Notes: a model not told the origin generated them from the letters alone. Shown: positions 739 to 24,913, counted from the first letter of the stretch. The stretch is 29,646 bases of DNA from a virus (IMGVR_UViG_3300047558_000360:1-29646), one strand, 5' to 3'. Program-made: numbers and translations.

Positions 739-771
739 GTGGTAATAAAAATGTATATTATTTGATTATTA

Positions 772-779
772 TATTTATA
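772..779 (+). promoter_or_regulatory. TATTTATA box, putative phage late promoter
   Basis: An exact TATTTATA in the 61-nt gap after the lysozyme gene, ending 20 nt before the start codon at 800. The same octamer recurs at similar distances before other genes (7684, 12697, 12721, 16188, and on the minus strand at 24894-24887). Confidence 0.5.
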
Positions 780-799
780 CACAGAATTAATTCAAAATT

Positions 800-1258
800 A
801 TGGACACGAACAAACTTTTTAAAGCTATTCAGCTTGTAGTTAGAGAAGAAGTTAAGAAACAAACTGCTGAAATTAAAGAGCAAGTTAGGAAAGAAATCTT
901 AGCTGAAATTAAGAAAACTAATGTAAGCGCACCAATTTCTAATCAAAGAAAGATGGAAAATCCTTTTGATAGAGCATTGGCTATGTTAGAGGAAGATAGA
1001 GAAGTTGAACAAACTCAATATGTAAAAAATCCAACTCTAAATCAGATTCTTAACGAAACTGCTATTAGACCAGGATTTAGTAGAACTGATGGTGAATGGG
1101 GAACTATGACACCTGAAATGATTGGTTATGGTAATCCACAAATGGGATATCAATCTCCATCGCAAACGGCAATGCCTAGCACCGGAAATGATTTAATAGA
1201 TAAGGCTATTGCTAGAAGTGCAGCGGTTTTAAAAGCAAGTAAAGATAAAAATAGATAA
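800..1258 (+). CDS. Small coiled-coil protein between the lysozyme gene and gp25
   Basis: A 152-residue protein I do not recognise. Residues 1-40 are a charged amphipathic helix rich in Lys/Glu (VREEVKKQTAEIKEQVRKEI), likely a coiled coil. The middle and C-terminal parts are polar, Pro/Gln/Gly-rich and probably poorly ordered, ending in a short helix. There is no signal peptide or membrane segment. It sits inside the baseplate gene block and its stop codon overlaps the gp25 start by one base (TAATG), so it is translated together with wedge proteins and is probably a small virion or assembly component. A TATTTATA box lies 20 nt upstream and the leader has no Shine-Dalgarno sequence. The function is unknown. 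Confidence 0.8.
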   Translation: MDTNKLFKAIQLVVREEVKKQTAEIKEQVRKEILAEIKKTNVSAPISNQRKMENPFDRALAMLEEDREVEQTQYVKNPTLNQILNETAIRPGFSRTDGEWGTMTPEMIGYGNPQMGYQSPSQTAMPSTGNDLIDKAIARSAAVLKASKDKNR

Positions 1259-1689
1259 TGGCAATATTAGTTGGGCCTAAATTGGTTAAAGATTTACCGG
1301 AAAAAGATAGAGTTGCTATCGGAATTACCCTTCCTTTACAAAGGGGTAATAATGGATTTTTTAATCAATCCTTTCAAACTATTGATCAAGTTAAATCAAA
1401 CATCAAAAATCTTATCTTAACGAGAAGAGGAGAAAGGTTAATGCACCCAACATTTGGAACGGATTTATATAATTCTTTATTTAATCAAAATACCGATGAT
1501 TTAGAATTGGAAATCCAAACTTCCATAGAATCTGCAATTGCAGAATGGATGCCATTTATATCAATAGAAGAAATATTGGTCGACCAAAGTAACACTGATA
1601 GAGATAGATATTTTTTCACGGTTTCGTTGAAATTTACAGTTGCGGGACAACAAAATTTAGAGACAGTAACATTTAATGTAATTGAATAA
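1258..1689 (+). CDS. gp25: Baseplate wedge protein gp25 (GPW/gp25 family)
   Basis: The 143 residues fit the GPW/gp25 family, close to the T4 gp25 length. In T4-like baseplates gp25 binds gp6 and gp53 in the wedge and primes sheath assembly. The characteristic block is visible: a helix IDQVKSNIKNLILTRRGER (about 42-60), then MHPTFGTDLYNSLF (62-75), an amphipathic helix of acidic and hydrophobic residues (about 80-97), and a beta C-terminus. It overlaps its upstream and downstream neighbours by one base each (TAATG), which suggests translational coupling. The immediate downstream neighbour is gp6, its structural partner in the wedge, which strengthens the call. Confidence 0.93.
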   Translation: MAILVGPKLVKDLPEKDRVAIGITLPLQRGNNGFFNQSFQTIDQVKSNIKNLILTRRGERLMHPTFGTDLYNSLFNQNTDDLELEIQTSIESAIAEWMPFISIEEILVDQSNTDRDRYFFTVSLKFTVAGQQNLETVTFNVIE

Positions 1690-3728
1690 TGGCATTTAAA
1701 GTAACAAATAAAAAAGTAGGTAGAAATAGTAGAGATATAAACTACTTAGGTAAGGATTTCGAATCATTCAGAGAAAACCTTATTGAATATGCTAAAACAT
1801 ATTTCCCAAACTCATACAATGATTTTAATGAATCATCACCTGGTATGATGTTTATTGAAATGGCTTCTTATATAGGAGATGTTTTAGGATATTATACCGA
1901 TTCATCGTTAAAGGAAAGTCTTATTCAATATGCAAGTGAGGAAAAGAATGTGTTTGCATTAGCTGGTTTATTAGGATATAGACCTAAACCAACCTCTCCT
2001 GCTATAACAACTTTATCGGTTTATCAATTATGTAAAGCTGATAGTAGTGGTAATATTGATAGAAATTATTTATTAAGAATAAACGAAGGATTATCAGTAA
2101 GATCAAGTTCTAATACTGATATTACATTTAGAACTACCGAAGTATTAGATTTTAACGAACCTGCTGATAGAGAGATTATAGTTTATAGTGTATCTCCTAC
2201 CACTAATTTACCTGACTATTTTTTAGTAAAGAAAAAGATTCAGGCAATTTCGGCGAATGTTAAAACAATTGATCAGATTTTTGGTAGTGCTGAATCATTT
2301 CAAAATATTAATATAACTGATACCGATGTAATTTCAATAGAAAGTATTGTAGATGACAATGGTAATAAATGGTATGAAGTTCCTTATTTGGCACAAGAAA
2401 CCATTTATATAGATTATCCGAATGTGGAACAATATGATGCTGATTTATATCAATTTTCAACAACAGTTCCATATTTGTTAAAATTATTAAAAACTTCTAG
2501 AAGATTTGTAGTTAGAACAAATGATGATTTCACTACATCTATTCAATTTGGAGGAGGAGATAGTTCTCTTTCCGATGAATTATTAATACCAAATCTTAAA
2601 AATGTAGGATTAGGATTAAATAATTCAATTGATAGAATGAATGAATCATATGACCCTACAAACTTCTTAAAGACAAAAACATATGGACAATCACCATCAA
2701 ATACTACTTTAACAATAACATATTTAGTTGGAGGTGGAATAAGTTCAAATGTTCCTCAAGGAGATTTGACAACTATTACAAATATTAATTTTGATGATGA
2801 TTTAATTAATACAACAACTGGTTTAGATACAACTATCTTAAATTTTTCAAAACAATCAGTTGCAGTAGAAAACGAAATTCCTGCAAAAGGTGGTAGAGGA
2901 GTAGATACGATTGAAGAAATCAGAGAAACTGCTTTAGCTAATTATGCATCTCAAAATAGAGCAGTAACTGGAAAAGATTATCAAGTTAGAGCTTTATCAA
3001 TGCCGACAAAGTATGGTTCAGTTTCTAAAGTATTTGCAATAGGTGATAATTCTTTAAATGCAAATTCACCAGAAGCTATATTAAATCAAACTGATAATGT
3101 AACTCAATTTGCAGAAATTGCTAAAGGATTGGTAAATTCTGCAATGGCAAATGGAGGGAAAATACCAACAACTGATGAAATAAAACAAAAGGTAAGAAGT
3201 TTTGTACAAAAAACAACTCAAAGTGCAGAATTGGTAAATCCATTCGCTATTAATTTATATACATTAGGATATGATGCAAATGGAAACTTAACTACTCTTA
3301 ATAGAGCGGTTAAAGAAAACCTTAAAACATATCTAAACGAATATAGAATGTTGACAGATGGTGTTAATATCATAGATGGATTTGTTATTAATATTGGTGT
3401 AAATTTTGATGTGACTGTTTATAAAAACTTTAATACAAAAGAAGTTTTATTAAAATGTATTGAAGAAATAAAATCATTCTTTACAATAGAAAATTGGCAA
3501 TTTAATCAAACAATAAATCTTTCTGATATTGAATTAGTATTGGCAATGGTAGAGGGAGTAGCATCGGTTCAAAAAGTAGAAATTGTAAATAAGTGTGGTG
3601 GAGCTTATGCTAGAAATAGTTATGATATTAAAGGGGCTACAAAGAATAAGATAATTTATCCTTCATTGGATCCATCTATCTTTGAAGTTAAGTTTCCTGA
3701 TAAAGATATTAAAGGAAGAGCAGTATAA
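1689..3728 (+). CDS. gp6: Baseplate wedge protein gp6 (baseplate J-like)
   Basis: At 679 residues it is near the length of T4 gp6, which forms the ring of dimers joining baseplate wedges and drives the hexagon-to-star change at contraction. Visible landmarks are the N-terminal PGMMFIEMASYIGDVLGYYT block (about 51-70), the baseplate J-like core with GGRGVDTIEEIRE and NRAVTGKDYQVRAL (about 401-440), and a C-terminal NLSDIELVLAMVEGVASVQKV segment (about 613-633) that in this family forms the dimer-contacting domain. There are no transmembrane segments and the frame is intact. It follows gp25 with a TAATG overlap and leads into the next gene the same way, placing it in one tightly coupled virion operon. 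Confidence 0.93.
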   Translation: MAFKVTNKKVGRNSRDINYLGKDFESFRENLIEYAKTYFPNSYNDFNESSPGMMFIEMASYIGDVLGYYTDSSLKESLIQYASEEKNVFALAGLLGYRPKPTSPAITTLSVYQLCKADSSGNIDRNYLLRINEGLSVRSSSNTDITFRTTEVLDFNEPADREIIVYSVSPTTNLPDYFLVKKKIQAISANVKTIDQIFGSAESFQNINITDTDVISIESIVDDNGNKWYEVPYLAQETIYIDYPNVEQYDADLYQFSTTVPYLLKLLKTSRRFVVRTNDDFTTSIQFGGGDSSLSDELLIPNLKNVGLGLNNSIDRMNESYDPTNFLKTKTYGQSPSNTTLTITYLVGGGISSNVPQGDLTTITNINFDDDLINTTTGLDTTILNFSKQSVAVENEIPAKGGRGVDTIEEIRETALANYASQNRAVTGKDYQVRALSMPTKYGSVSKVFAIGDNSLNANSPEAILNQTDNVTQFAEIAKGLVNSAMANGGKIPTTDEIKQKVRSFVQKTTQSAELVNPFAINLYTLGYDANGNLTTLNRAVKENLKTYLNEYRMLTDGVNIIDGFVINIGVNFDVTVYKNFNTKEVLLKCIEEIKSFFTIENWQFNQTINLSDIELVLAMVEGVASVQKVEIVNKCGGAYARNSYDIKGATKNKIIYPSLDPSIFEVKFPDKDIKGRAV

Positions 3729-4726
3729 TGATACATTTTGTTACCGCATCAAAAGATGCAACAGTTTATACCTTATATAAAACCAAAAACACTGGTTTAG
3801 ATGAAATATTGACGGTATCCAAACACTATTCTCGTTTTGCAGAAAAAGATGATACAAGAGTATTCATACAATTTGATTTATCGAATATACCTACATATGT
3901 AACAGCTTCATCTGCTACTATGTGTTTAAAACTAACTGAAGCAGAAGAAATGCCAATTAGTTTTTCTCTTTATGCATATCCTGTAACACAAAGTTGGAAT
4001 ATGGGTATTGGAACATTTGTTTATACTCCTTCCACAAATGATGGAATTACATGGAATACTCAACCATATATTCTAACATCATCCGCAGCTGCATCGCAAT
4101 CCTTTACATATCAAAGTTTAGATGTAGAAATGGATGTAAAAAACATTTACAACTATTGGACTGGTTCTACAAATAATGGTTTAGTATTAAAACATTTAGA
4201 ATCAATAGAATCATCTTCGGAAGATTATGGTATAATGAATTTCTATTCAAGAGAAACAAATACTATAAATCAACCTCTATTAAAATTAGGATGGGATGAT
4301 GTTTCTGGTTCATTTTCAACCGGTTCATTAAGTGCATTAACTGCATCTGCGATAATAGTAAAGAGTAAAGAATTAAAACCCGCATATTATGAGGGAGGTA
4401 AGGTTAAAATTAAAGTAATAGGTAGAGAACAATATCCTATAAAAACCTTTTCTAATTCATTCTCTTATTTAGATGTAAAATATCTTCCAACAAGTTCATA
4501 TTTCGCTATTAGAGATGAAATTACAAAGAAGAAAATTATAGATTTTTCTACTTATAGTAAAATAAATTGTAATTCAGAAGGAAATTATATTGTGTTCGAT
4601 ACTACTAATTTCCCAAAAAATAGAGTGTATAAACTTCTATTTTTGATAGAAAGAGATGGATTTGAAGATTATTTTGAAGATGATTTAACATTTGAAATAA
4701 GAAGTAATGGAGTTCGAGTTGATTAA
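3728..4726 (+). CDS. Structural protein with DNRLRE-like beta-sandwich domain
   Basis: A 332-residue protein in the baseplate block. Residues about 1-190 look like a DNRLRE-type jelly roll, a carbohydrate-binding-like fold found in surface proteins. Supporting features are an opening beta strand leading to DTRVFIQFDLSNIP (42-55), then ATMCLKLTEAEE, a WNTQPY segment, and a strand pattern ending GLVLKHLES...NFYSRET. This pattern is familiar from DNRLRE proteins but the match is by eye. Residues about 200-332 are beta-rich and may be one or two Ig-like domains. It begins with a TAATG overlap with gp6, and the next gene starts inside its last 20 bases. A role as wedge-attached adhesin or short tail-fibre support is inferred; it could also be a purely structural wedge protein. 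Confidence 0.8.
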   Translation: MIHFVTASKDATVYTLYKTKNTGLDEILTVSKHYSRFAEKDDTRVFIQFDLSNIPTYVTASSATMCLKLTEAEEMPISFSLYAYPVTQSWNMGIGTFVYTPSTNDGITWNTQPYILTSSAAASQSFTYQSLDVEMDVKNIYNYWTGSTNNGLVLKHLESIESSSEDYGIMNFYSRETNTINQPLLKLGWDDVSGSFSTGSLSALTASAIIVKSKELKPAYYEGGKVKIKVIGREQYPIKTFSNSFSYLDVKYLPTSSYFAIRDEITKKKIIDFSTYSKINCNSEGNYIVFDTTNFPKNRVYKLLFLIERDGFEDYFEDDLTFEIRSNGVRVD

Positions 4727-7680: not shown

Positions 7681-7683
7681 AAG

Positions 7684-7697
7684 TATTTATATAAATA
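7684..7697 (+). promoter_or_regulatory. Palindromic TATTTATATAAATA element, putative late promoter
   Basis: In the 27-nt gap before the giant tail gene lies a perfect 14-bp palindrome that contains TATTTATA (7684-7691) and its complement TATAAATA (7690-7697). TATAAATA is the known T4 late-promoter -10 sequence. The recurring box in this genome reads TATTTATA in the direction of transcription; only this site offers both orientations. It ends 10 nt before the start codon at 7708. Confidence 0.5.
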
Positions 7698-7707
7698 AAA
7701 GAAGTAA

Positions 7708-10700
7708 ATGCAAGATTCAATAGATCAATTGTCGAATACACCAAACCAAAACAATCCAGGTGGAATACCATTGGAAGTGCTTAACTCGTCTACTTTGTCA
7801 AGTGTACCGACTGATACATATCAAGCAATTACTGAATTAAAGGGTCAAAGTGTTGGTGGTAATGCGATTTATAATACTCCATATGATGCTTTAAAAGCAG
7901 TTACTCCTACCAATCCACCATCATATGTTGCTCCTGGACAAAGAACATATAGAGAATACTTTTATTCACCTTATAATACTGTCAATTTTAATATAGATGT
8001 TCCTTTTGCACAAATAGCTGCAAGAGAAACTCCAATTGAAAATATGCCAGTTCAAACTGCTGAATTTGTTAATGTTAAATTAAGAAATACAACTGGACAA
8101 GATGGTGTTAGATTGTACATTGATAAACCTCAAAATGGTGTTGGTGTTGTAGATTTAACAGGAGAACAAACAATTGGTGTAGAAAAATATTCAAAATTAT
8201 CAATTGTAAGAAAAAATCCAAATTCATATAATATTAGTGCAATAAGAATTTATAATGAAAATGGTAATTTAGTAAAAGAAACATCTGCAAATACATTTGA
8301 TTTATCATCTATTGATTCTTCTTATTTAATTGAAGTAGATACGAATCAGGTAGTAACTACTGATATGCAACCTTCAATTGTTTCACAAATAAGACAATTA
8401 TATGGTTGGAATTTAGAAGCAAGTAAAACATTTACACTAAATGTAGGGGTAACTAATTCTACAACATATGTAAAATATTATTTTCCAAACCAATCTGGAG
8501 CAGATACAAACGGAGCAAAAAAGATATCCGTTACTAATGGAGAGGCTATTATAACATTAAATAATCCTAATTCTTTAGGAAGATTTGAATTAATTATATT
8601 TGCTGGAAATGAGATATTTGGTGATTTTGGTGAAATAAGAACATTCATTGAAGTATTACAAGAAAAAACTTACGGAGAGCCTGATGTAACAAAAATTACA
8701 TTTGATAGAAATATTACCGAAGCGGATTTAAGACCATTAGATTTTAATTTTGAATTTGATTTAGAATCCGTAAATTCCGAAGGTATTCAATTATTTTTAG
8801 GTGATAATTTAATTAATGATATTCCTGTTAAAGATAATAAAGCAAAATTAACTTTGGGTGCTAAAGGTCTTTATGAATTATATAAAGATTACTTTAACGA
8901 AACCAAAGAAACATATGCAATTACATTTACTTTTCAACCATACTTTTATGGAATAGATGGAAGAATAATTGGAAAAAAAGAAAGTGTAAGTGTATTAGTT
9001 AAAAGAGCAAAATTCTTAGTTTCTAAATCAGAAGCTATTGGATCAATCTCAAGCGTATTTTCTCAATTATTTTCAGGAGGAGATACTAAGAAAAAATACG
9101 AAGACCAGATTATATTTGAAGATGATAAACATTTATATTATCAGGTTAGAACAAATGCTGATAAATCGTTTGTAATATCAAATATTGGTATTGATACTTT
9201 AACCTATTCAATATTTGAAGGAAAGGTAGTTGAAACACAATTTGAACTTGATCCTAATACTGGAAACACAAGAAAGAAAAAAGGATATTTAACATATGGT
9301 TCGTTAGTAGTTAAATTATTAGAACCATTACCAACAGAAATTGATTTAAATACTCAAGTTTGGGTTTCTAAACAAATCATACCTTCTATTGTTGAAACTA
9401 TTATTATTACCGATGAAGATGTTGATAAATGTTTGCCATTAAAACCAAACTTCGGTACTGATATTATAGATGAAACTGGATATCAATTTTTCGATGAAAT
9501 AACTGCAAGTGGTTCTTTAACATCAACTGATATTGTTAATAGATATGTATCTCAAAGTCAATTTAATTTAGATAACTTAAACATATCATATACAAGTGGT
9601 AGTGATAAAACACAAGATTATTTCTTAAAGTTTGAAAACTTTACAAATTTTGGTGGGGCTCAAACTAGATTAGAAAACTTCCAATATAAATTACAATCAA
9701 TTGAAGTATGGGAAAATAAAGTTACAAATGATTTAATTTTATCTTCAGTATCATCATCTATTGCATTAACAACAAGTGCTTCTTATGATGATAAAGTAAA
9801 GGCTATTAAAAATGGATTTGATGGTCTTGAAAAAACTTTGTATAATAATTTTTATGTAACATCATCAACTGATTCGTTTTTTACAATTCAAACTTCAAAT
9901 GCAGAAGTATATGATAGAACTAATAAAAATTATTTAGTTAAGCATATTCCTCAACATATTCAAGAAGATCAAGGTAGTTTAGAATATCTAACATTCTTGG
10001 AAATGATTGGACAACACTTTGATATTATTTGGTCTTATATCAATGGTATCAATAGAGTTAGAAAAGTTGAAAACAAAGCAACTGATGGTATATCTGATAA
10101 ATTAGTATATGAGTTATTAGAATCATTTGGATGGGATCCAGTTAATCCATTCAGTGGAACGGATTTATGGAAACATGCATTTGGATTAAACGAAGATGGT
10201 TCTACTCCTACTAATAATAATATTTTAGGAAATAGTGTTTCTTCAACTTATACTCATGAAGAAGCTAGAAATCAGTTATGGAGAAGAATACTTAATAATT
10301 TACCTTATTTATTAAAACATAAAGGTACGAGAAAATCTATAAATGCTATATTAGCGTGTTATGGTGTTCCTTCTTCTTTGATGTCAATTGTTGAATTTGG
10401 AGGCCCATCGCATACATCCGCTGAAACATCTAAATATACATATGAAGACAGAAGTGCTGTATTAAATTTAAATGCGAATGAATATGTAACTATTCCTTGG
10501 ATTAGTTCTTCAAATGCACCTGAATCGATACAATTAAGATTTAAAACCAATGATAAAGTAAATACTCAACAGATAATAAGACAAGTATCTGGTTCAAATT
10601 ACTTTAAAGTTAGTTTAATACCTTCTGCTAGCACTGAAATTGGAGATATTAAATTAGAATTATTTTCAACAAAAAACCAATTTGATGGAACTTACTTAAC

Positions 10701-12690
10701 AACTACTGCATTATCAACAAGTAGTTTAAGTATTACAAAAGTACCTTTATTTGATAATGATTTTAAATTCGTAACTCTTCAAAGAAATAGAATAAATGAT
10801 GGAGGTTTAGATTATGATAGATATACTTTATATCTTAAAGAAGCGGTTGATGATAGAGTGATGTTATCAAAGAGTTCTTCATTAACTCTTCAGGTATCAT
10901 CATCTAATTCTTTATTTGCTGGAAGTGAATATTATACAAATTTATCATGGACAGGAAATGGAACTTTATTATTCGGAGGTAGTGGAAGTAATGGTATAAG
11001 TGGTTCGATAGATGAAGTTAGATTATGGAATTCTGCATTAAGTGAATCCGTTATAAATTCACATACTTTAAACCCAGATGTGATAAGAGGTAATAATGTA
11101 TATTCATCTACCGAACATTTATTAGTTAGATTAGATTTTGAATATCCTAAAAATCTTTATACTACATCTTCTATAAAGAATGTTGCACCTCATACTGCAT
11201 CATATACATCTTCAGCTGATGCACATATGAATTCAACTATAACTTCATATCCATATCATTATGATGTATATGAAAGATTTGTAACTGCTGATATTCCTTC
11301 AATTGGATTTGTTGGAAGAGATAAAGTTAGAACTGAAGATATTGAATTAGTTGGTAATTTATCATATAAAGCAAGAGCAACTAAAAAGGCATTTGATAGA
11401 GCAGCATTAGATTCAAATAGATTGGGATTATTTTTCTCACCTGTTAAAGAATTGAATTTGGATATTCTTAAATCAATGGGTTCTATTAATATTGGTGATT
11501 ATATTGGTGATTGGGGTGATGAATATGGTAGTGATTCTTATAGTGAATTGGTTGGATTAAGAAATTATTATTTTCAAAGAACAAATTTAAATTTTGATGA
11601 ATATATCAAATTAGTAAGATCAATAGATAAATCTTTATTTGATATGTTGGATCAGGTTATTCCTGTGAGAGCTAATGTATCAAAAGGATTATTAATCGAA
11701 CCTTCTCTTTTAGATAGAAGTAAAATTAAAATAAATAGACCTACTGCTGAAAACATATATCATAGTGGTTCTATAATAGCTACAACGGCTCAAAATATAG
11801 AAACTGAAATACCATATTTTACCGGTAGTTTAGATGTTCAAACTAATAAGGATTTAGAAGCATCAGTTGCTTTTTATTCAGGATCTTATGCAGTAGATGG
11901 TGTAGATGAGGTTAGTGCTGAATATCAAAGTTTAGAATCCGAATATACTGTCGTAGATTTAGATTCTATGAGTGGTGAAATAACATACAATTCGGGATCA
12001 ACAATGGGTGGTATCGAAATTATTGTAGATGCTGGATTAAAAGAATCTACGATAGTTGCTGAATATGATTTAGAAACTTCATATCAATCCGTAGGTAATG
12101 AATCCGATTCACCATTTAATTTAGGATTTGGATTATACGGACAAAAAGGTGCGGTAGATAGAACATATTTTAGAGAAGATGGAACTTTGGTATTAACTCA
12201 AAGATATAATGCTTATATTATAACAATTAGATATAGTAGAAATGTTCCATATAGAATTCCTGCAAACGGAATTTCTTCATCTCTTTATAATACTTCTAAA
12301 TTAGGAGCAGATGATAAGATAGATGTTCAAAAAGTTTATAGATATGAAAAGAAATTGGTATTAATTGACCCAATAGAAAATAATACTTTTAAAACACCTA
12401 CACAACATTCATTCTACGGAGATATATCATCTGCATTGGGTGTATTCCCATATGGTAAGGGAGTTATCACTGCTATTGAAGTATTTGATGGATATACAAG
12501 TGGACATTATAGATACACAAAGGATACTACAAGAGGTTTGGATAATTCATTCTTTGAAGGTTCTAAACAAACTTCTTTAACTACTTTAGATGGTGCATCT
12601 CCGGTAGAAGTATTTGTAACTAACCCTAATAGATTGAAAGTTGCGGCTTCAGGTAGAGGTAGTGGAGAACCAATATTGGAAGTTGATTAA
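7708..12690 (+). CDS. Giant tail/baseplate structural protein with LamG-like region
   Basis: At 1660 residues this is the largest complete gene in the window. The N-terminal half (about 75-600) is a chain of beta-rich, Ig-like segments. A central helical part includes a conserved-looking block NLPYLLKHKGTRKSINAIL (about 869-887). Residues about 915-1125 resemble a concanavalin/LamG jelly roll, opening with LNLNANEYVTIPW and closing with GSIDEVRLWNSALSESVI. The C-terminal third is again beta-rich. Single proteins of this size after gp6 are plausible functional counterparts of T4 gp7 (wedge) or of fused wedge and fibre-anchor proteins, but I see no direct gp7 motif. The LamG-like part could bind glycans on the host surface. 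It has its own promoter-like box 16 nt upstream and no Shine-Dalgarno sequence. Confidence 0.85.
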   Translation: MQDSIDQLSNTPNQNNPGGIPLEVLNSSTLSSVPTDTYQAITELKGQSVGGNAIYNTPYDALKAVTPTNPPSYVAPGQRTYREYFYSPYNTVNFNIDVPFAQIAARETPIENMPVQTAEFVNVKLRNTTGQDGVRLYIDKPQNGVGVVDLTGEQTIGVEKYSKLSIVRKNPNSYNISAIRIYNENGNLVKETSANTFDLSSIDSSYLIEVDTNQVVTTDMQPSIVSQIRQLYGWNLEASKTFTLNVGVTNSTTYVKYYFPNQSGADTNGAKKISVTNGEAIITLNNPNSLGRFELIIFAGNEIFGDFGEIRTFIEVLQEKTYGEPDVTKITFDRNITEADLRPLDFNFEFDLESVNSEGIQLFLGDNLINDIPVKDNKAKLTLGAKGLYELYKDYFNETKETYAITFTFQPYFYGIDGRIIGKKESVSVLVKRAKFLVSKSEAIGSISSVFSQLFSGGDTKKKYEDQIIFEDDKHLYYQVRTNADKSFVISNIGIDTLTYSIFEGKVVETQFELDPNTGNTRKKKGYLTYGSLVVKLLEPLPTEIDLNTQVWVSKQIIPSIVETIIITDEDVDKCLPLKPNFGTDIIDETGYQFFDEITASGSLTSTDIVNRYVSQSQFNLDNLNISYTSGSDKTQDYFLKFENFTNFGGAQTRLENFQYKLQSIEVWENKVTNDLILSSVSSSIALTTSASYDDKVKAIKNGFDGLEKTLYNNFYVTSSTDSFFTIQTSNAEVYDRTNKNYLVKHIPQHIQEDQGSLEYLTFLEMIGQHFDIIWSYINGINRVRKVENKATDGISDKLVYELLESFGWDPVNPFSGTDLWKHAFGLNEDGSTPTNNNILGNSVSSTYTHEEARNQLWRRILNNLPYLLKHKGTRKSINAILACYGVPSSLMSIVEFGGPSHTSAETSKYTYEDRSAVLNLNANEYVTIPWISSSNAPESIQLRFKTNDKVNTQQIIRQVSGSNYFKVSLIPSASTEIGDIKLELFSTKNQFDGTYLTTTALSTSSLSITKVPLFDNDFKFVTLQRNRINDGGLDYDRYTLYLKEAVDDRVMLSKSSSLTLQVSSSNSLFAGSEYYTNLSWTGNGTLLFGGSGSNGISGSIDEVRLWNSALSESVINSHTLNPDVIRGNNVYSSTEHLLVRLDFEYPKNLYTTSSIKNVAPHTASYTSSADAHMNSTITSYPYHYDVYERFVTADIPSIGFVGRDKVRTEDIELVGNLSYKARATKKAFDRAALDSNRLGLFFSPVKELNLDILKSMGSINIGDYIGDWGDEYGSDSYSELVGLRNYYFQRTNLNFDEYIKLVRSIDKSLFDMLDQVIPVRANVSKGLLIEPSLLDRSKIKINRPTAENIYHSGSIIATTAQNIETEIPYFTGSLDVQTNKDLEASVAFYSGSYAVDGVDEVSAEYQSLESEYTVVDLDSMSGEITYNSGSTMGGIEIIVDAGLKESTIVAEYDLETSYQSVGNESDSPFNLGFGLYGQKGAVDRTYFREDGTLVLTQRYNAYIITIRYSRNVPYRIPANGISSSLYNTSKLGADDKIDVQKVYRYEKKLVLIDPIENNTFKTPTQHSFYGDISSALGVFPYGKGVITAIEVFDGYTSGHYRYTKDTTRGLDNSFFEGSKQTSLTTLDGASPVEVFVTNPNRLKVAASGRGSGEPILEVD

Positions 12691-12696
12691 AGAAAA

Positions 12697-12728
12697 TATT
12701 TATAAAACTAAAAGGTTATATATTTATA
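12697..12728 (+). promoter_or_regulatory. Two tandem TATTTATA boxes, putative double late promoter
   Basis: The 68-nt gap after the giant gene holds two exact TATTTATA copies, at 12697-12704 and 12721-12728, with start-to-start spacing of 24 bp. They lie 54 and 30 nt before the start at 12759. No other gap in the window has two. The unit they precede ends in a strong terminator, which suggests a highly expressed transcript. Confidence 0.5.
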
Positions 12729-12758
12729 TAAGACCAATAAAAAGTAAAAAAACATAAA

Positions 12759-13373
12759 ATGGCATATTTAGATAATTCCGAAATTATTATTGATGCTATC
12801 CTTACAAAAAAAGGTAGAGAAAAATTGGCAGCGGGTCAATCATTGAACATTACTCAATTTGCTTTGGGTGATGATGAAATTGATTACCAATTGTATGATG
12901 CGGCACACCCAAAAGGTTCTGCATACTATGATGCGGCTATTAAAGCTATTCCTATTTTAGAGGCTAGTCCAGATGAAACTCAAGTTTTGAAATACAAACT
13001 TGTTACCCTTCCAAAAGGAACAACCAAAATACCTCAAGTATCAATCGGTGTAACATCGGTTACTACAAATCAACAAAGAGGTAAAGTTACTATTACACCA
13101 ACAACTTCTCCAGCAGGAAATACAACTGCAGGATATACTGCGGTATTGGCAGATAAAACTGCGGGTACTTTGGTAGGTTTAGGTGTTGCAGCAGCAGGAC
13201 AAATTGCTGTTAGTGATTCAGTTACCGCAACTGCAGACGTTAAGAGAGGTATTACATTTGAGTTTATTCCAAATCCTTCATTAACCGCTACAATTGTAAC
13301 TACATTGACAGTTTATGGAAATGAGACCGGAGGTTCAGTTTCTATTCCTGTGACAGTAAATTATGTAGCATAA
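12759..13373 (+). CDS. Virion structural protein with beta-rich C-terminal domain
   Basis: A 204-residue protein. The N-terminus (MAYLDNSEIIIDAILTKKGR, 1-20, then EKLAAGQSLNITQFALGDDE) reads like the N-terminal region of phage structural proteins, but I cannot name a family. Residues about 95-204 are Thr/Ala/Gly/Val-rich with alternating beta strands ending VSIPVTVNYVA, consistent with an Ig-like decoration domain. It is followed after 15 nt by the next structural gene and preceded by two TATTTATA boxes, so the two genes probably form one strongly transcribed unit. Translation starts behind an A-rich leader without a Shine-Dalgarno sequence. The exact virion position is unknown. Confidence 0.82.
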   Translation: MAYLDNSEIIIDAILTKKGREKLAAGQSLNITQFALGDDEIDYQLYDAAHPKGSAYYDAAIKAIPILEASPDETQVLKYKLVTLPKGTTKIPQVSIGVTSVTTNQQRGKVTITPTTSPAGNTTAGYTAVLADKTAGTLVGLGVAAAGQIAVSDSVTATADVKRGITFEFIPNPSLTATIVTTLTVYGNETGGSVSIPVTVNYVA

Positions 13374-13388
13374 AAATTAATATAGAAA

Positions 13389-14639: not shown

Positions 14640-14667
14640 ATTTAAACTTAAACCTTAATTTTAATAG

Positions 14668-14690
14668 AACCCGCTTCGGCGGGTTTTTTT
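14668..14690 (+). terminator. Rho-independent terminator with UUCG tetraloop
   Basis: A perfect 7-bp stem AACCCGC/GCGGGTT (14668-14674 with 14679-14685) is closed by the exceptionally stable C(TTCG)G tetraloop and continues into an uninterrupted T run ending at 14690. It starts 28 nt after the stop codon at 14639 and is a rare G+C-rich stem in this A+T-rich sequence, so it is a convincing intrinsic terminator. Confidence 0.95.
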
Positions 14691-14698
14691 AATTATGA

Positions 14699-14706
14699 TA
14701 TTTATT
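14699..14706 (+). promoter_or_regulatory. TATTTATT box just upstream of the 14712 start
   Basis: A one-mismatch version of the TATTTATA box lies between the terminator and the next gene, ending only 5 nt before the ATG at 14712. If it works as a -10 element, the transcript would begin at or near the start codon, giving a leaderless message. Confidence 0.35.
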
Positions 14707-14711
14707 AGTGT

Positions 14712-16184: not shown

Positions 16185-16187
16185 TGA

Positions 16188-16195
16188 TATTTATA
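16188..16195 (+). promoter_or_regulatory. TATTTATA box, putative late promoter
   Basis: An exact TATTTATA in the 30-nt gap between 16184 and 16215, ending 19 nt before the next start, the same geometry as the box before 800. Confidence 0.5.
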
Positions 16196-16214
16196 CTATA
16201 TAACAAAATAAAAG

Positions 16215-16454
16215 ATGGGAAAGACTAAACAAATATTAGACATTTATAAGACTTCTAAAATTGCTGAAAAGAATGCATCTAAACAATCGATTGATTTTTC
16301 AAAACCGAAAGTTGGTGGTATGTTAGCAGTTAAAGGGTTTACTCCAAATGCACTTCCAGGAGCTAGTGATTATAATACAAATGATAAAGTATTAGAAGCT
16401 GCAAGAAAGGGTAAAGTAAACGGAACTTCTTATAGTTCTACTGTCAAACGATAA
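16215..16454 (+). CDS. Small basic protein of unknown function
   Basis: A 79-residue basic protein, Lys-rich at both ends, with a short helical N-terminus (KTKQILDIYKTSKIAEKNAS) and a Gly/Pro-containing middle (GGMLAVKGFTPNALPGASDY). There is no signal peptide, membrane segment or recognised motif. It has its own TATTTATA box 19 nt upstream and an A-rich leader, which suggests late expression with the structural genes and a possible minor virion or assembly role. The next gene starts 21 nt downstream. Confidence 0.72.
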   Translation: MGKTKQILDIYKTSKIAEKNASKQSIDFSKPKVGGMLAVKGFTPNALPGASDYNTNDKVLEAARKGKVNGTSYSSTVKR

Positions 16455-16475
16455 TATTAAATAAAAGGTTACAAT

Positions 16476-16919
16476 ATGTGGAAATATAAAAATGGGATAA
16501 TTTCAGATTTATCTGAAACCCCTGAAGGAGCTTTTGGGTTTGTATATGAGGTAGTACATCTCTCATCTGGCAAACGATATATAGGTAGGAAACAACTTAT
16601 ATCAGTAACCACAAAAGCATTGGGCAAAAAGGAATTATCAGAACTAACTGATAAGAGAGCTAGTAAGAAAAAAAAGGTTCAAAAAGAGAGTGATTGGAAA
16701 ACATATTATGGTTCACACTCTGAAATAAAAGCATTAATCAAAAGTGGGAAGCAAGAAGAATTCGAAAGAACTATTTTACAATTTGCTTTCTCTCCAAAAC
16801 ACTTAACTTACTTAGAAACAAAATATTTATTTTCATTAGATGTGTTAGAAAATCCTAACTTATATTTTAATGATAATATTTTAGGTAAATTTTTTAGAAA
16901 AGATATTCCAAATGGGTAA
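16476..16919 (+). CDS. SegE-like GIY-YIG endonuclease
   Basis: A 147-residue protein with the GIY-YIG nuclease core: the first strand GFVYEVVHL (21-29) supplies the GIY-equivalent Tyr24, then GKRYIGRKQ (32-40) supplies YIG with the following Arg/Lys. A basic insertion (about 50-70) leads to DWKTYYGSHSEIKALI, and the helix YLETKYLF near residue 114 offers the metal-binding glutamate. The order matches the SegE-type GIY-YIG family of T4-like phages, relatives of homing endonucleases that cut DNA once. There is no separate DNA-binding domain in this short protein, so target specificity is unclear. It overlaps the next gene by 8 nt and sits at the boundary between structural and replication genes, a common place for such mobile or accessory genes. 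Confidence 0.8.
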   Translation: MWKYKNGIISDLSETPEGAFGFVYEVVHLSSGKRYIGRKQLISVTTKALGKKELSELTDKRASKKKKVQKESDWKTYYGSHSEIKALIKSGKQEEFERTILQFAFSPKHLTYLETKYLFSLDVLENPNLYFNDNILGKFFRKDIPNG

Positions 16920-17733
16920 ATTATTAATGACAGTTGGGGATTCATTCACATTTGGTGAAGCGTTACAATTTCATTTATGGAAAAGTAAATACCCAACTAC
17001 ATTTAATAGATTTAAAGGCAAAGAAAGATATGATCCATGTCATTCTATTAGTGAAGATTTCATAGAATTTGATGATTTTAGAAGAAAAGTAAATTATACT
17101 GGACAACTATCCTCTATATTAGGAATAACATATGCTAAAAATTCTGGAAACGGAGGAAATAATATAGGTAGTTTAGAATTATTAGATAGATGGATAGAGC
17201 ATGTTCTTTATGATAAATCACTTGAACCTGAATTAGTTGTATTTCAATTTACCAATATAATAAGAGATGTTATACATTTAAAAAATATGAATGAAGGTAA
17301 TAGAGGGCCTTATAATCATATTTTTGAAAAAGTAAAAACCATATTATCTTTAATTGATAATATAAATCAACCTTCCAAAGAACAAATGGAAAATATGGGA
17401 AGTATATTTGCTGATTTTTTCTATACAATAGTTTTGGAAGTTCAAAAAAGATTTTCTATATTAGAGAATGAATTTGGAACAAAATGTATTTACTTCATAG
17501 GTAGTGCAGAGCAATATTCCAAACAATTATATCATTCATTGATACAATCTGATATACACTATTTACCAATTATTTATAAAGAAAATTTATATACTGATTG
17601 GGATACTATGAATAGACAAAATGGATTAACAATCAGATTAGAGTTGGGTGTAAACGATGACCATCCTACTTTAGATTCTCATCAATATATTACAAATCTT
17701 ATATATAAAAAATATTTGGATATTTCCAAATAA
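16912..17733 (+). CDS. SGNH/GDSL-fold hydrolase-like protein 1
   Basis: A 273-residue protein with the SGNH layout. Strand 1 ends in the nucleophile motif VGDSFTFG (Gly9-Asp10-Ser11), NSGNGGNNIGS (78-88) fits the block II Gly, FQFTNIIRD (111-119) fits block III with Asn115, and DDHPTLDSH near the C-terminus (249-257) fits the block V Asp-x-His. SGNH enzymes are esterases or acyl-transferases, often removing O-acetyl groups from sugars. It begins 8 nt inside the GIY-YIG gene and is followed by a second protein of the same fold. I infer an esterase acting on host surface glycan or on acylated metabolites; no signal peptide is present, so it acts in the cytoplasm, is released on lysis, or is carried on virions. 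Substrate is unknown. Confidence 0.75.
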   Translation: MGKLLMTVGDSFTFGEALQFHLWKSKYPTTFNRFKGKERYDPCHSISEDFIEFDDFRRKVNYTGQLSSILGITYAKNSGNGGNNIGSLELLDRWIEHVLYDKSLEPELVVFQFTNIIRDVIHLKNMNEGNRGPYNHIFEKVKTILSLIDNINQPSKEQMENMGSIFADFFYTIVLEVQKRFSILENEFGTKCIYFIGSAEQYSKQLYHSLIQSDIHYLPIIYKENLYTDWDTMNRQNGLTIRLELGVNDDHPTLDSHQYITNLIYKKYLDISK

Positions 17734-17746
17734 TTTCGTATATTTG
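17713..17746 (+). promoter_or_regulatory. Bacteroidota-type promoter with dyad over the -33 box
   Basis: The -7 element TATATTTG (17739-17746) matches the Bacteroidota consensus TAnnTTTG exactly, and a TTTG -33 element (17715-17718) lies 20 nt upstream of it. The -33 box lies in a perfect dyad with 8-bp arms TATTTGGA/TCCAAATA around TATT (17713-17732), a possible operator. The -7 box ends 4 nt before the ATG at 17751, so that gene's message would be nearly leaderless. Confidence 0.6.
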
Positions 17747-17750
17747 GGTT

Positions 17751-19368: not shown

Positions 19369-19369
19369 T

Positions 19370-20894: not shown

Positions 20895-20896
20895 TT

Positions 20897-21262
20897 ATGG
20901 CATATAAACCAATAAAGATAAATAAACAATGGGGTTATGAATTATGGATTCATAATGATTCTCAATATTGTGGAAAACTTTTAGTGTTTCCAAATGAAGG
21001 TAATCATTTTTCAATGCATTATCATATTATTAAAAATGAAACTTGGTATGTTCAGAAAGGAGCATTTGAATTTCATTGGATAGATACCGATACTGCGACT
21101 CTACATAAAGAAATCTTAAATGTAGGGGAATGTGTTTATATTGAAAATGGAAAACCGCATCAATTAATTGCATTAGAGCCCGAATCTATTATTTTTGAAG
21201 TAAGTACACAACACTTTGATGATGATAGTTATAGAATTTATAGAACTCCAAAAACAACATAA
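20897..21262 (+). CDS. Cupin-fold protein
   Basis: A 121-residue single-domain cupin. Motif 1 gives the metal ligands MHYHIIKNETWYVQKG (His41, His43, Glu48) and motif 2 gives GECVYIENGKPHQL (His88), the usual His-x-His, Glu, His set. The N-terminus (KQWGYELWIHN) resembles that of the mannose-6-phosphate isomerase/GDP-mannose pyrophosphorylase-type cupins, so a sugar or sugar-phosphate substrate is plausible, but small cupins have many functions. There is no signal peptide. It lies 2 nt after thyA and is directly abutted by the next small gene, so all three would be co-transcribed. Confidence 0.85.
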   Translation: MAYKPIKINKQWGYELWIHNDSQYCGKLLVFPNEGNHFSMHYHIIKNETWYVQKGAFEFHWIDTDTATLHKEILNVGECVYIENGKPHQLIALEPESIIFEVSTQHFDDDSYRIYRTPKTT

Positions 21263-21442
21263 ATGACATATATAACCACCCGTGTCCCTAAATTAGCGGA
21301 TTTGAAAAAGGAATTGGAAGAACATCCTAACCGAATAGAATTGTATTGTAAATATATGGGGTATGATGGGGATAGTGAGGCAATTGCGTATTTAGAAGAG
21401 AAAATAAAGGAATATATGGACTCAAAAAATGTTAAAAAATAA
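21263..21442 (+). CDS. 59-residue hypothetical protein
   Basis: A short open frame that begins on the base after the cupin stop codon and ends at a TAA just before the promoter of the nuclease gene. The protein opens MTYITTRVPKLADLKKELEE and is mostly helical and charged, with a KYMGYDGDSEAIAYLEEKI segment (30-48). It fills a gap that would otherwise be 231 nt long in a genome with almost none. No family is recognised. Its direct abutment to the cupin gene and clean helical amphipathic pattern support it being real, but length alone cannot exclude a chance frame. Confidence 0.62.
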   Translation: MTYITTRVPKLADLKKELEEHPNRIELYCKYMGYDGDSEAIAYLEEKIKEYMDSKNVKK

Positions 21443-21474
21443 TTTGGTTATATCAATTATTTTTCGTATCTTTA
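21435..21474 (+). promoter_or_regulatory. Bacteroidota-type promoter with 10-bp dyad
   Basis: The -7 element TATCTTTA (21467-21474; consensus TAnnTTTG, last base differs) stands 20 nt after a TTTG -33 element (21443-21446), the same spacing as the promoter at 17715. A perfect inverted repeat AAAAATAATT/AATTATTTTT (21435-21444 and 21455-21464) with a 10-nt spacer flanks the -33 region. The predicted start of transcription is about 14 nt before the ATG at 21494. Confidence 0.6.
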
Positions 21475-21493
21475 TCCTAAGAAATATACTATA

Positions 21494-24400
21494 ATGAAGT
21501 TAGATAATGTTAAGTACATCTATCACTTAGCCGATTTGCATATTCGCAATTTAAAAAGGCATAAGGAATATAGAGAAGTATTAAATAAATTTTTGTCCGA
21601 TGTGGATTCTCAAAATTTAGAGAATTCCGTTATTTATTTAGCAGGAGATATTGCTCACGCTAAAACTGAAATGTCTCCTGAATTAGTTAGAGAGATTACT
21701 TGGTTTTTTACGGAATGTGCTAAAAGAAAACCTACTTATGTTATTACGGGAAATCACGATTGTAATCTAAACAATAAAGATAGATTGGATGTTCTTACTC
21801 CAATTTGTGATAATCTTTCCTTACCAAATTTATTTTATTTAAGAGATACTGGTGTATATCAGATTACCGATGATATTACTTTTACCGTCTATTCTATTTT
21901 AGACAAACAAGAAAATTGGCCTAAAGGTAAAGATGTAAGTGGTAATAAAAAGATTTGTTTCTTTCATGGACCGGTAGATGCTGCAAGAACCGATATTGGT
22001 TATGTAGTATCATCTAATAATTTCACACCCGATATGTTTGATGGGTTTGATATGGTATTAATGGGTGATATTCATAAAAGACAAGTTGTTCAACAAAGAG
22101 ATAAGGCAAATGGAAAACCTATTGTAGTTTACGCAGGTTCAACTGTCCAACAAAATCACGGAGAGTATTTAGAGAATCATGGTTATTTACTTTGGGATGT
22201 AGAAAATGAAACATTTGAAGAATATAATATTCATAATGATTATGGATATCTTACTATTGATATTGTAAATGGTGTAATTCCACAATGGGTTCATGATGAA
22301 ATAGGAACTAAGTTACCTAAACAACCTAGATTAAGAGTTCGTTTCTCCGATACTGAAGTTAGTGATATTAAGTTAGTAGCGGCAGAATTGCAACAAATGT
22401 TTAAGGTAAATGAAATTACTATTACAAAACAGGATACTTTAAACTCATTAAAATCTAAAAACCGAAATGCTAGAAACTTAGCTGGTAATATAAAAGATGT
22501 AAATGTTCAAAATGGTTTAATTAGAGAGTATTTAGAACGCCAATTTCTTTTAGATGATGAAACCCTTAATAAAGTAATTGAAATCAATAATGGGGTTAAT
22601 TTAAGGGTTACTCATGAAGATACTGATAATATTCTTTGGATTCCAAAATCTTTCGAATTCAGTAATATGTTTTCATATGGAGAAGGTAATAAAATTAACT
22701 TTGAGAATGCCAGAGGAATTATAGGATTATTTGCACCAAACACTCAAGGTAAATCATCTTTATTTGATGCACTTTCATTTTGTATATTTGATAAGTGTAG
22801 TAGAGCATTTAAGGCAACGCATATAATGAACAACCAAAAGGATACTTTTAGTTGTAAATTTAATTTTGAAATTGATGGTGTGAATTACTTTGTAGTAAGA
22901 GAAGCACACACTACAAAAAGCGGAAATGTAAAAGTAAATGTAAACTTTTTTAGAATTGTAGATGGTTCAGAAGAATCTTTAAATGGTGAAGAAAGAAGAG
23001 ATACAAACGATATTATTCGAAAGTATTTGGGAACATATGAAGATTTTGTGATGACATCTTTATCATTGCAAGGTAATAATGCTTTATTCATTGATAAATC
23101 TCAATCAGAAAGAAAAGATATATTAGCACAATATATGGGTGTTAATGTATTTGATAAATTGTTTGATATTGTAAATGAAGATAATAAAGAAGCAGCGGTA
23201 TTATTAAAGAATTTTAAAAAAGATGATTTCTCTCAAAAGTTGGGTGATTTAGAAACATCTATTACTACCGATACAATTAAATTTGATAATTTAATTGAAA
23301 AGAAAGATGATTTAGAACATGATAAAACTGAAATTGAAAGAGAATTATCAAAATTAGAATCTCAAATTGTTCAAACTGCTATCACAATAGATTTAGATGA
23401 TGAAACAAAACGATTAAATTCATTTAGTTCTTCATTAGAAACTAATAAGGAAAAATTGGGCAAAATGGAAACCCAATTAACTGAGGCGAAAGGTATTATA
23501 GTTCAATTAGAAGAGCAAAAGAAAGAATTATCTACTTTCAGTATAAATGGTACAGAAATTGATATTGAGTATGCGTATAACGACTGGAAAGATAAACAAA
23601 AAGATTTATCAGAAGCAGAAAGAAAATATGATACGGCTAAACAATATTTAGATGCTGCTAATCAAAAGATTGCACATTTAGATGATCACAAATATGATCC
23701 TAATTGTGAATTTTGTTGTGATAATGTATTCGTAAAAGATGCAATGAAAGCGAAAGAATCATTAGAAGAATTGGAAACGACAGTAGACCATACTTTGGAT
23801 GATGTACTTGGTATTAATAATACTTTAGAATTGTTAAAAGGAGTAGACGAAGCGTATAAAACATATACTGATAAAGAAAAAGAAATTGTTAATACTACAA
23901 CATTAGTTAGTAAAATTAAAGAGTATATTGCTAGAACACAATTAGATATAAAAAATTGTGAAGATGGTATCACAAAAGCTACTTCTAATATTGAAGAATA
24001 TCATAGAAACAAAGAACAAATAGAATTAAACAAACAACTTCGTAAGAATATAGCTGATACCAAAGAGATTATTAATGGTGTTAAGAAAGAAGTTAAACGA
24101 TTAGGTGATACTATTTTAGAACTTAATACAAAAATTTCAAAGGCAAAGCAGGAGAAAGAAGGTATTGAGGCTAATATTAAAAAAGTAAAAGAATTAGAGG
24201 AAACAAATAAATTATATGATTACTATTTGGATGCAACTAAGAGAGATGGTATTTCATATGAATTAATTTCTAAAACTCTTCCAACAATTGAAGGAGAGAT
24301 AAATAACATCTTAGGTCAAATTGTGGAATTCAGTATGAATCTACAAATGGATGGTAAGAATGTTAATGCTTACATCAATTATGGAGATAGTAGAAAGTGG

Positions 24401-24685
24401 CCTTTGGAAATGTGTAGTGGAATGGAGAAGTTTATCAGTGGATTGGCAATTAGAGTTGCATTGATAAACATATGTAATCTACCTAGACCAAACTTCTTAG
24501 TAATTGATGAAGGATTTGGTACTTTAGATAGTGAAAACCTACAATCCTTATTTATGGCTTTTGCTTATCTAAAAACACAATTTGAATTTGTGATTGTTAT
24601 TTCACATATTGATTCTATGAGAGATGTGGTGGACACTCTTTTAGAAATTAAAAAAGATAACGGATTTAGTTCCGTTAAGTTTTAA
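21494..24685 (+). CDS. Fused Mre11/SbcD-like nuclease and Rad50/SbcC-like ATPase (gp47-gp46 fusion)
   Basis: A single intact frame of 1063 residues that joins two proteins separate in T4 (gp47 and gp46), which resect DNA ends for recombination-dependent replication and host DNA breakdown. Residues 1-350 are a calcineurin-like phosphoesterase with LADLH (Asp14, His16), LAGDIAHA (Asp52), TGNHD (Asn87, His88), HGP (His158) and MGDIH (Asp192, His194), all metal ligands present. Residues about 385-1063 are the SMC-type ATPase: Walker A APNTQGKSS (Lys420), long coiled coils (about 570-720 and 750-930), a zinc hook CEFC (Cys738, Cys741), ABC signature MCSGMEKFISG (Ser975) and Walker B VIDEGFGTLD (Asp1005, Glu1006). 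The hook CxxC suggests dimerisation as in Rad50. It sits behind a host-type promoter and its end overlaps the convergent regulator gene by 11 nt. Confidence 0.95.
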   Translation: MKLDNVKYIYHLADLHIRNLKRHKEYREVLNKFLSDVDSQNLENSVIYLAGDIAHAKTEMSPELVREITWFFTECAKRKPTYVITGNHDCNLNNKDRLDVLTPICDNLSLPNLFYLRDTGVYQITDDITFTVYSILDKQENWPKGKDVSGNKKICFFHGPVDAARTDIGYVVSSNNFTPDMFDGFDMVLMGDIHKRQVVQQRDKANGKPIVVYAGSTVQQNHGEYLENHGYLLWDVENETFEEYNIHNDYGYLTIDIVNGVIPQWVHDEIGTKLPKQPRLRVRFSDTEVSDIKLVAAELQQMFKVNEITITKQDTLNSLKSKNRNARNLAGNIKDVNVQNGLIREYLERQFLLDDETLNKVIEINNGVNLRVTHEDTDNILWIPKSFEFSNMFSYGEGNKINFENARGIIGLFAPNTQGKSSLFDALSFCIFDKCSRAFKATHIMNNQKDTFSCKFNFEIDGVNYFVVREAHTTKSGNVKVNVNFFRIVDGSEESLNGEERRDTNDIIRKYLGTYEDFVMTSLSLQGNNALFIDKSQSERKDILAQYMGVNVFDKLFDIVNEDNKEAAVLLKNFKKDDFSQKLGDLETSITTDTIKFDNLIEKKDDLEHDKTEIERELSKLESQIVQTAITIDLDDETKRLNSFSSSLETNKEKLGKMETQLTEAKGIIVQLEEQKKELSTFSINGTEIDIEYAYNDWKDKQKDLSEAERKYDTAKQYLDAANQKIAHLDDHKYDPNCEFCCDNVFVKDAMKAKESLEELETTVDHTLDDVLGINNTLELLKGVDEAYKTYTDKEKEIVNTTTLVSKIKEYIARTQLDIKNCEDGITKATSNIEEYHRNKEQIELNKQLRKNIADTKEIINGVKKEVKRLGDTILELNTKISKAKQEKEGIEANIKKVKELEETNKLYDYYLDATKRDGISYELISKTLPTIEGEINNILGQIVEFSMNLQMDGKNVNAYINYGDSRKWPLEMCSGMEKFISGLAIRVALINICNLPRPNFLVIDEGFGTLDSENLQSLFMAFAYLKTQFEFVIVISHIDSMRDVVDTLLEIKKDNGFSSVKF
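24650..24677 (-). terminator. Hairpin terminator for the minus-strand regulator gene, possibly bidirectional
   Basis: A perfect 7-bp stem TAACGGA/TCCGTTA (24658-24664 with 24671-24677) with a 6-nt loop. Read on the minus strand it begins at the regulator's stop codon and is followed by TC and six T residues (24655-24650), a standard intrinsic terminator. On the plus strand it is followed by a weaker T-rich tract (24680-24683 and on), so it may also slow transcription leaving the nuclease gene. It lies inside the last codons of the 21494 gene. Confidence 0.65.
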
Positions 24686-24860
24686 TTCTTTCCGCCGGTA
24701 GTATATTTCTAACTTTTGATGTGGTTCGTATTTTTTCTTTAATTAGATTAGATACGAACCTACTCATTTTATATCCTCTCTCATCACAATAGTCTTTTAA
24801 TGCGGTATGAACCTCTTTTGGGAGTTGTAACATAGCATATCTGTCAGATTTCTTTATCAT
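24675..24860 (-). CDS. Ribbon-helix-helix (Arc/CopG-like) DNA-binding regulator
   Basis: The only minus-strand gene, 61 residues. It has the ribbon-helix-helix plan: a short strand (DRYAMLQLPKEV, about 6-17), helix A (HTALKDYCDERG, 18-29), a turn (YKMS), helix B (RFVSNLIKEKIR, 34-45) and a basic tail. Such proteins bind DNA as dimers, inserting the strand pair into the major groove of tandem repeats. It is convergent with the nuclease gene (11-nt overlap) and divergent from the tail fibre gene. A TATTTATA box is correctly oriented 26 nt upstream and 10-bp tandem repeats cover its leader and start codon, so autoregulation is likely. Unlike the other minus-strand frames here it has a recognisable fold, promoter and terminator. 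Confidence 0.8.
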   Translation of the reverse strand: MIKKSDRYAMLQLPKEVHTALKDYCDERGYKMSRFVSNLIKEKIRTTSKVRNILPAERIKT

Positions 24861-24888
24861 TCTTTAGATTTCTTTAGTATTTCCTTTA
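24847..24888 (-). repeat. Tandem 10-bp repeats at the regulator start, candidate operator
   Basis: On the plus strand GATTTCTTTA occurs at 24847-24856 and 24867-24876 with the variant TCATTCTTTA exactly between them (24857-24866), and a looser copy GTATTTCCTTTA follows (24877-24888). The core TTCTTTA thus repeats every 10 bp, one DNA helical turn, the arrangement that tandem ribbon-helix-helix dimers use. It covers the promoter-to-start region of the regulator and its first codons. A+T richness makes some repetition expected. Confidence 0.55.
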
Positions 24889-24894
24889 TAAATA
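24887..24894 (-). promoter_or_regulatory. TATTTATA box on the minus strand, putative promoter of the regulator
   Basis: TATAAATA on the plus strand, so TATTTATA in the direction of the minus-strand regulator, 26 nt before its start codon. This is the only minus-strand gene and its box is reversed accordingly, which argues that the motif is directional. It abuts the tandem repeats. Confidence 0.5.
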
Positions 24895-24905
24895 CATCAA
24901 AAATA

Positions 24906-24913
24906 TATTTATT
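24906..24913 (+). promoter_or_regulatory. TATTTATT box, putative promoter of the tail fibre gene
   Basis: A one-mismatch TATTTATA box ending 21 nt before the ATG at 24935, about 12 bp from the divergent box of the regulator. The 74-nt divergent region therefore holds both promoters and the candidate operator. Confidence 0.45.

Follow-up and report, generated by a model that had tools for sequence, protein, structure and literature searches.

Late transcription in phage T4 starts at promoters with an 8-bp TATA box (TATAAATA) at −10, no −35 element and A/T-rich sequence downstream; these promoters depend on the phage-encoded sigma factor gp55 and require the sliding clamp gp45 together with gp33 (PMC2988020). 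In the open complex formed with T4 gp55, a deep pocket receives A(−12), which stacks on Y97; N13 and H95 touch A(−9), and T99 bonds A(−8) (PMC7892883). The workings of gp55-dependent late transcription are established for T4 and nearer relatives, and variant boxes are described in other T4-related phages, namely Aeromonas phage Aeh1 (late octamer with a/gC at −13/−12) and cyanophage S-PM2 (PMC2988020). Here, we analysed a 29.6-kb viral contig fragment with 30% GC from a T4-related myovirus (IMGVR_UViG_3300047558_000360, 29,646 nucleotides (nt); hereafter, the window), in which the octamer TATTTAT(A/T) recurs upstream of genes. We estimate at roughly 80% the probability that this box is the −10-like element of late promoters in a large group of T4-related Bacteroidota myoviruses, with a gp55-like sigma factor as its presumed reader.

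A previous sequence-only reading of the window had listed the octamer at 772, 7684, 12697, 12721, 14699, 16188 and 24906 on the plus strand and at 24894–24887 on the minus strand, and all eight sites were confirmed. Its statement that the boxes end 16–30 nt before a start codon applied to six of the eight, whereas the copies at 12697 and 14699 lie 54 and 5 nt from the ATG, respectively (Table 1). Over the whole window, TATTTATW showed no excess (16 observed vs. 24 expected), so that its mere presence says little and its position is the significant part. On the same strand as the genes, seven copies occurred in 619 intergenic plus-strand bases and five in 29,027 coding bases (odds ratio 66, Fisher P = 1.2 × 10−9), and none of 2000 dinucleotide shuffles of the window's intergenic DNA reached seven boxes (mean 0.73, maximum 5). 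An equal density inside genes, which had been named as the outcome that would speak against a promoter, was thus missed by approximately 66-fold. The in-gene copy previously noted at 16824 stands, and further in-gene copies were located at 2067, 10306, 17571 and 21631 (plus strand) and at 11730 and 29446 (minus strand); the minus-strand copy at 7690 is merely the palindromic overlap TATTTATATAAATA.

No close phage record was found for the window; judged by the gp6-like protein, its nearest isolates were Microcystis phage Mel-JY01 and Flavobacterium phage immuto (ca. 40%). Relatives were drawn from IMG/VR, where at least 600 contigs matched and 80 were fetched. Among all 8-mers in the non-coding upstream DNA of the fetched loci, TATTTATA and ATATTTAT were the most enriched (156 and 173 observed vs. 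7 expected; ca. 200- and 460-fold over coding DNA). Within the window's clade, ATATTTATA was the dominant word of the 236 non-redundant upstream regions, found in 92 of them against 4.8 expected, and TATTTATA was observed 96 times against 9.9 expected. Single substitutions in ATATTTATA were tolerated almost only at −11 (C, 14 vs. 0.8 expected) and −6 (T, 16 vs. 3.7 expected), and A at −10 was avoided (2 vs. 8.9 expected). The box preceded every orthologue counted of three window genes (Table 1, families of genes 800, 7708 and 12759) and, in the immuto clade, 80 of 80 orthologues of the gene immediately 3′ of the sigma gene described below. Furthermore, relatives kept the boxes in register while the flanks diverged at genes 800, 7708, 12759, 14712, 24860 (minus strand) and 24935. 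At gene 12759, this applied to the 12721 copy only, which was in register in relatives G006, L011, L014, L015, L041, L044, L056 and G001; the copy at 12697 is probably not the functional one. In the isolate immuto, the box precedes the terminase, portal, tail sheath, tube, hub, tape measure and spike genes, and hand-sorting of its upstream gaps placed a box in 17 of 29 virion gaps vs. 8 of 31 others (P = 0.01). In the immuto clade, a possible G-rich upstream signal at about −29 was set aside, as orthologue redundancy had not been fully removed.

The box had been described as reading opposite to the T4 motif, and this was not borne out. That TATTTATA and TATAAATA are reverse complements of each other reflects only their near-palindromic make-up; aligned along transcription, both carry T(−13), A(−12) and T(−11) followed by A(−8), T(−7) and A(−6), and differ only at −10/−9 (TAT-AA-ATA in T4, TAT-TT-ATA here). 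In gaps between genes of one direction, the ratio of TATTTATA to TATAAATA was 20:2 and 17:1 in relatives G001 and G002 and 24:6 in immuto, whereas T4 treated identically gave 0:3, its few TATTTATA copies all lying in divergent gaps. These ratios indicate that the box is truly directional, and the earlier expectation that its direction agrees with transcription was upheld: it is strand-specific and faces the downstream gene. TATAAATA itself was rejected as a real motif in these phages (7 observed vs. 10.5 expected in the 236 upstream regions). Since the box departs from the T4 consensus, we regard it as a variant and not as a T4 late promoter proper. It shares with T4 late promoters the 8-bp TATA box at −10, the lack of a −35 element, the A/T-rich downstream sequence, the placement on virion genes and, in relatives, a phage-encoded gp55-like sigma factor. 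In contrast to T4, the core carries TT at −10/−9 and the T4 octamer is not enriched. The change is lineage-specific and accompanies a divergent gp55, as in Aeh1 and S-PM2; however, those variants are altered at the upstream edge (−13/−12), whereas the present box is altered centrally and keeps −13/−12.

A gp55-like sigma factor elsewhere in the genome had been anticipated, and a corresponding gene was found in relatives, outside the window. A gp55-family profile search of immuto returned a single weak match, immuto26A_153, annotated as ‘hypothetical’ (E = 0.008). Sigma70_r2 (PF04542) and phrog_12791 gave no match, T4 gp55 alone found nothing by phmmer, and phrog_274 proved a wrong guess for the gp55 family. 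The candidate has approximately 235 amino acids, is unannotated and is conserved in relatives: orthologues of immuto26A_153 were present in every one of the 80 additional loci retrieved with it, as well as in the long relatives, at a fixed place 5′ of the baseplate genes. In relative G006, the gene lies 8.4 kb before the gp6-like gene, and from this spacing the sigma gene of the window's phage would be expected ca. 6.7 kb left of the window edge. When a 34-member profile of the candidates was compared with nine gp55s by hhalign, 105 columns of the sigma region 2 homology domain aligned with a probability of 82% and a score of 41.9, whereas 15 decoy families from the same phages scored at most 16.4. 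As a single sequence, the immuto protein ranked first of 353 for gp55 likeness, and in each of the two complete-size genomes examined no protein resembled gp55 more than the candidate did. Its weak NCBIfam matches were all sigma factors; the sigma profile found nothing among PDB sequences. An AlphaFold2 model (predicted local distance difference test (pLDDT) 79) gave weak Foldseek matches against PDB, mostly to sigma factors. Only after re-alignment to PDB chains did T4 gp55 in the RNA polymerase open complex come first (7d7c_F; Z 9.9, 5.0 Å, 121 residues), followed by a long row of sigma factors.

The candidate differs from the T4 protein in an extra helical C-terminal domain of ca. 100 residues. 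Modelled alone (pLDDT 88), this domain had no clear relative; its weak structural matches included SigR region 4 (Z 4.8) and the N-terminal domain of an integrase (Z 5.8), so that it may correspond to sigma region 4. A C-terminal clamp-binding motif common to the sigma family was not found. The sigma factors of the window's clade end in acidic-aromatic tails (EEDTFF, EEDIFYK, DEMDFFAY), which could serve as such a motif.

In the hhalign alignment, the residue corresponding to Y97 of T4 gp55 was tyrosine in all 34 homologues. H95 aligned to F/Y and N13 to T, the latter with an uncertainty of one residue, and T99 was retained as T in the window's clade and replaced by G/Q in others. As far as so distant an alignment allows, the residue changes would thus match the box changes, with the −12 contact kept and the −9 contacts altered. 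Overall, the late promoter seems to be of the T4 type, altered in its core and paired with a divergent gp55-like sigma factor, and it appears to work like that of T4. Early and replication-type genes would be transcribed from host sigma-A promoters (TTTG-N~20-TANNTTTG), and virion genes from ATA(T/C)TTAT(A/T) without a −35 element. The phage sigma factor would associate with the core enzyme of the host RNA polymerase and read the box in its unwound form, on the non-template strand, and transcription would start ca. 6 nt 3′ of the box. The box preserves A(−12) and A(−8), the bases held in the deep pockets of gp55, and differs from TATAAATA by TT for AA at −10/−9; the sigma factor would have kept the tyrosine stacking on A(−12) and altered the residues touching base −9. 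More tentatively, and on balance doubtfully, the sigma factor might work without a T4-type clamp, its C-terminal domain replacing gp33/gp45 and the box being re-specified by matched changes at −10/−9 and in the pocket.

Several points weigh against the proposed late promoter and its sigma factor. The sigma gene lies outside the window, and its presence in the window's phage is deduced from close relatives such as L010 (83% identity in gp6). Every sequence-level gp55 match was weak, including the best family match (E = 0.008), and a Z of 9.9 is within reach of unrelated helical proteins, although most top-ranked chains were sigma factors. A clear sigma region 4 was not recognised in the candidate, and no match to the gp45-type/beta clamp (phrog_223 or PF02767) was obtained in nine records, the complete immuto genome among them, a search that may miss a divergent clamp. 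Certain non-virion genes also carry boxes. Finally, the link between box and sigma factor draws on co-occurrence and residue correspondence. The distant phage Mel-JY01 has a sigma homologue but only a weak signal of the box, and LR756508 has a homologue with no evident box. This indirect link would be consistent with another phage factor, such as an activator that binds DNA or a phage polymerase that escaped recognition, reading the box while the gp55-like protein is otherwise employed. We consider this improbable, because a −10-like TATA octamer near start codons of virion genes, without a −35 element, is the signature of gp55-type promoters, and the best gp55-like protein of both complete-size genomes is the candidate itself.

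The same genomes also use promoters of the host type, and the box might accordingly be a weak form of the host sigma-A −7 element in which A replaces the G of TANNTTTG (e.g., TATATTTA), with host RNA polymerase transcribing the late genes. TATATTTA does fit TANNTTT and is enriched upstream (56 observed vs. 9.9 expected), and the two elements share TATTT-like letters within the same phage genomes. A separate gene set carries TTTG-N20-TATATTTG or TTTGG-N-TTCGTATATTTG, which we take to be Bacteroidota sigma-A promoters, and in immuto many small hypothetical genes are preceded by GTTG-N-TATMTTTAG. However, Bacteroidota sigma-A promoters need the −33 TTG, and TTG was present 18–26 nt upstream of 42 of 44 host-type −7 boxes but of only 9 of 80 late boxes, which lack a conserved −35 element and the sigma-A arrangement of TTTG near −33 with TANNTTTG near −7. 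Moreover, the late-box core continues through TATA past TTT, at positions that are meaningless in the host element, while the two bases preceding ATATTTATA vary. The two elements also stand on different gene sets (in G001, 24 with a late box, 13 with a host-type promoter and one with both), which defines two promoter classes. An origin of the box as a host sigma-A variant is thus slightly less probable still than another phage factor, and the earlier proposal of a phage-specific promoter class on virion genes agrees with these results, which set that class apart from the host-type promoters. Such a division into early and late genes is as expected of a T4-like programme, the timing being suggested by gene content.

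An AT-rich translation or mRNA-processing signal would suit the short distance to the ATG (median 22 nt) and the A-rich leader downstream of the box, but it is very improbable given that the box occurs solely at operon starts and in gaps and never at the many genes with stop/start overlaps, precedes 28 of 28 members of the 12759 family but 0 of 22 of the co-directional 13389 family (next gene in the same operon), lies 3′ of an intrinsic terminator at gene 14712, and varies from 3 to >40 nt in its distance to the ATG, unlike a ribosome-binding signal.

Table 1. Promoter boxes and associated features in the window and, in the last row, in related phages.
Feature	Position	Strand	Occurrence in relatives and remarks
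Late box ATATTTATA, 20 nt 5′ of ATG of gene 800–1258 (first in gp25/gp6 baseplate operon)	771..779	+	71/71 family upstream regions; in register in relatives
gp25-like and gp6-like baseplate wedge genes, virion operon under the 771 box	1258..3728	+	phrog_261, phrog_219
Late box GTATTTATA, 16 nt 5′ of 1660-residue gene 7708–12690	7683..7691	+	Overlaps own reverse copy TATTTATATAAATA; 6/6 family members; same box in L009
Second ATATTTATA, 54 nt 5′ of gene 12759	12696..12704	+	Not conserved in relatives
Late box ATATTTATA, 30 nt 5′ of gene 12759–13373 (204 residues, putative tail protein)	12720..12728	+	28/28 in gene family
Intrinsic terminator directly 5′ of late box at 14698	14666..14687	+	
Late box ATATTTATT, 5 nt 5′ of ATG 14712	14698..14706	+	Same arrangement in G006
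Late box ATATTTATA, 19 nt 5′ of gene 16215–16454	16187..16195	+	G006 upstream region also has box
Host-type promoter TTTG-N20-TATATTTG before gene 17751	17715..17746	+	
Host-type promoter TTTG-N20-TATCTTTA before SbcCD-like gene 21494	21443..21474	+	Read from sequence
Late box GTATTTATA, 26 nt 5′ of ribbon-helix-helix gene 24860–24675	24887..24895	−	Kept in G006
Late box ATATTTATT, 21 nt 5′ of fibre-like gene 24935	24905..24913	+	Kept in G006
gp55-like sigma gene	L010 1567–2289; MW353175 78174–78872		

The genes of the window include an endolysin, the gp25- and gp6-like baseplate wedge proteins, large tail proteins, a primase, a thymidylate synthase, an SbcCD-like nuclease and a fibre. The box at 14698 ends so close to its ATG that, with T4 spacing, +1 would fall on the first base of the start codon and the transcript would be leaderless, unless a later start is used; boxes 3–5 nt before an ATG recur in relatives. 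Similarly, the host-type promoter at 17715–17750 ends 4 nt before the ATG of gene 17751, which suggests a leaderless or near-leaderless transcript. The small Arc/CopG-like ribbon-helix-helix gene at 24675–24860, the only minus-strand gene, has 97% identity in G006, and its late box and that of the fibre gene stand back to back; its product is a possible late regulator. The protein encoded at 16476–16919 matches phrog_447 (labelled ‘NAD synthetase’) and also homing-endonuclease families, and the gene at the equivalent place in Mel-JY01 is annotated GIY-YIG; the ‘NAD synthetase’ label looks wrong. The recorded host of Mel-JY01 (PP395634) is a cyanobacterium. However, its gp6-like and sigma proteins place the phage among those of Bacteroidota, and GTATATTT is a frequent word upstream of its genes; it may in fact infect a Bacteroidota bacterium present in the culture.

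In a literature search whose coverage excluded most subscription journals, neither this box nor any late promoter of such phages was found to have been described. Our results point to a tightly kept, altered late box and an unannotated gp55-like sigma factor in a very abundant environmental group of Bacteroidota phages (at least 600 contig matches). The box would allow late promoters to be annotated in hundreds of contigs, and together with its putative sigma factor it is a candidate for an orthogonal promoter/sigma pair to be used in Bacteroidota genetics. How a minimal sigma factor shifts its DNA specificity can be examined here in a clean natural setting, and direct tests are possible with a cultured isolate, Flavobacterium phage immuto.

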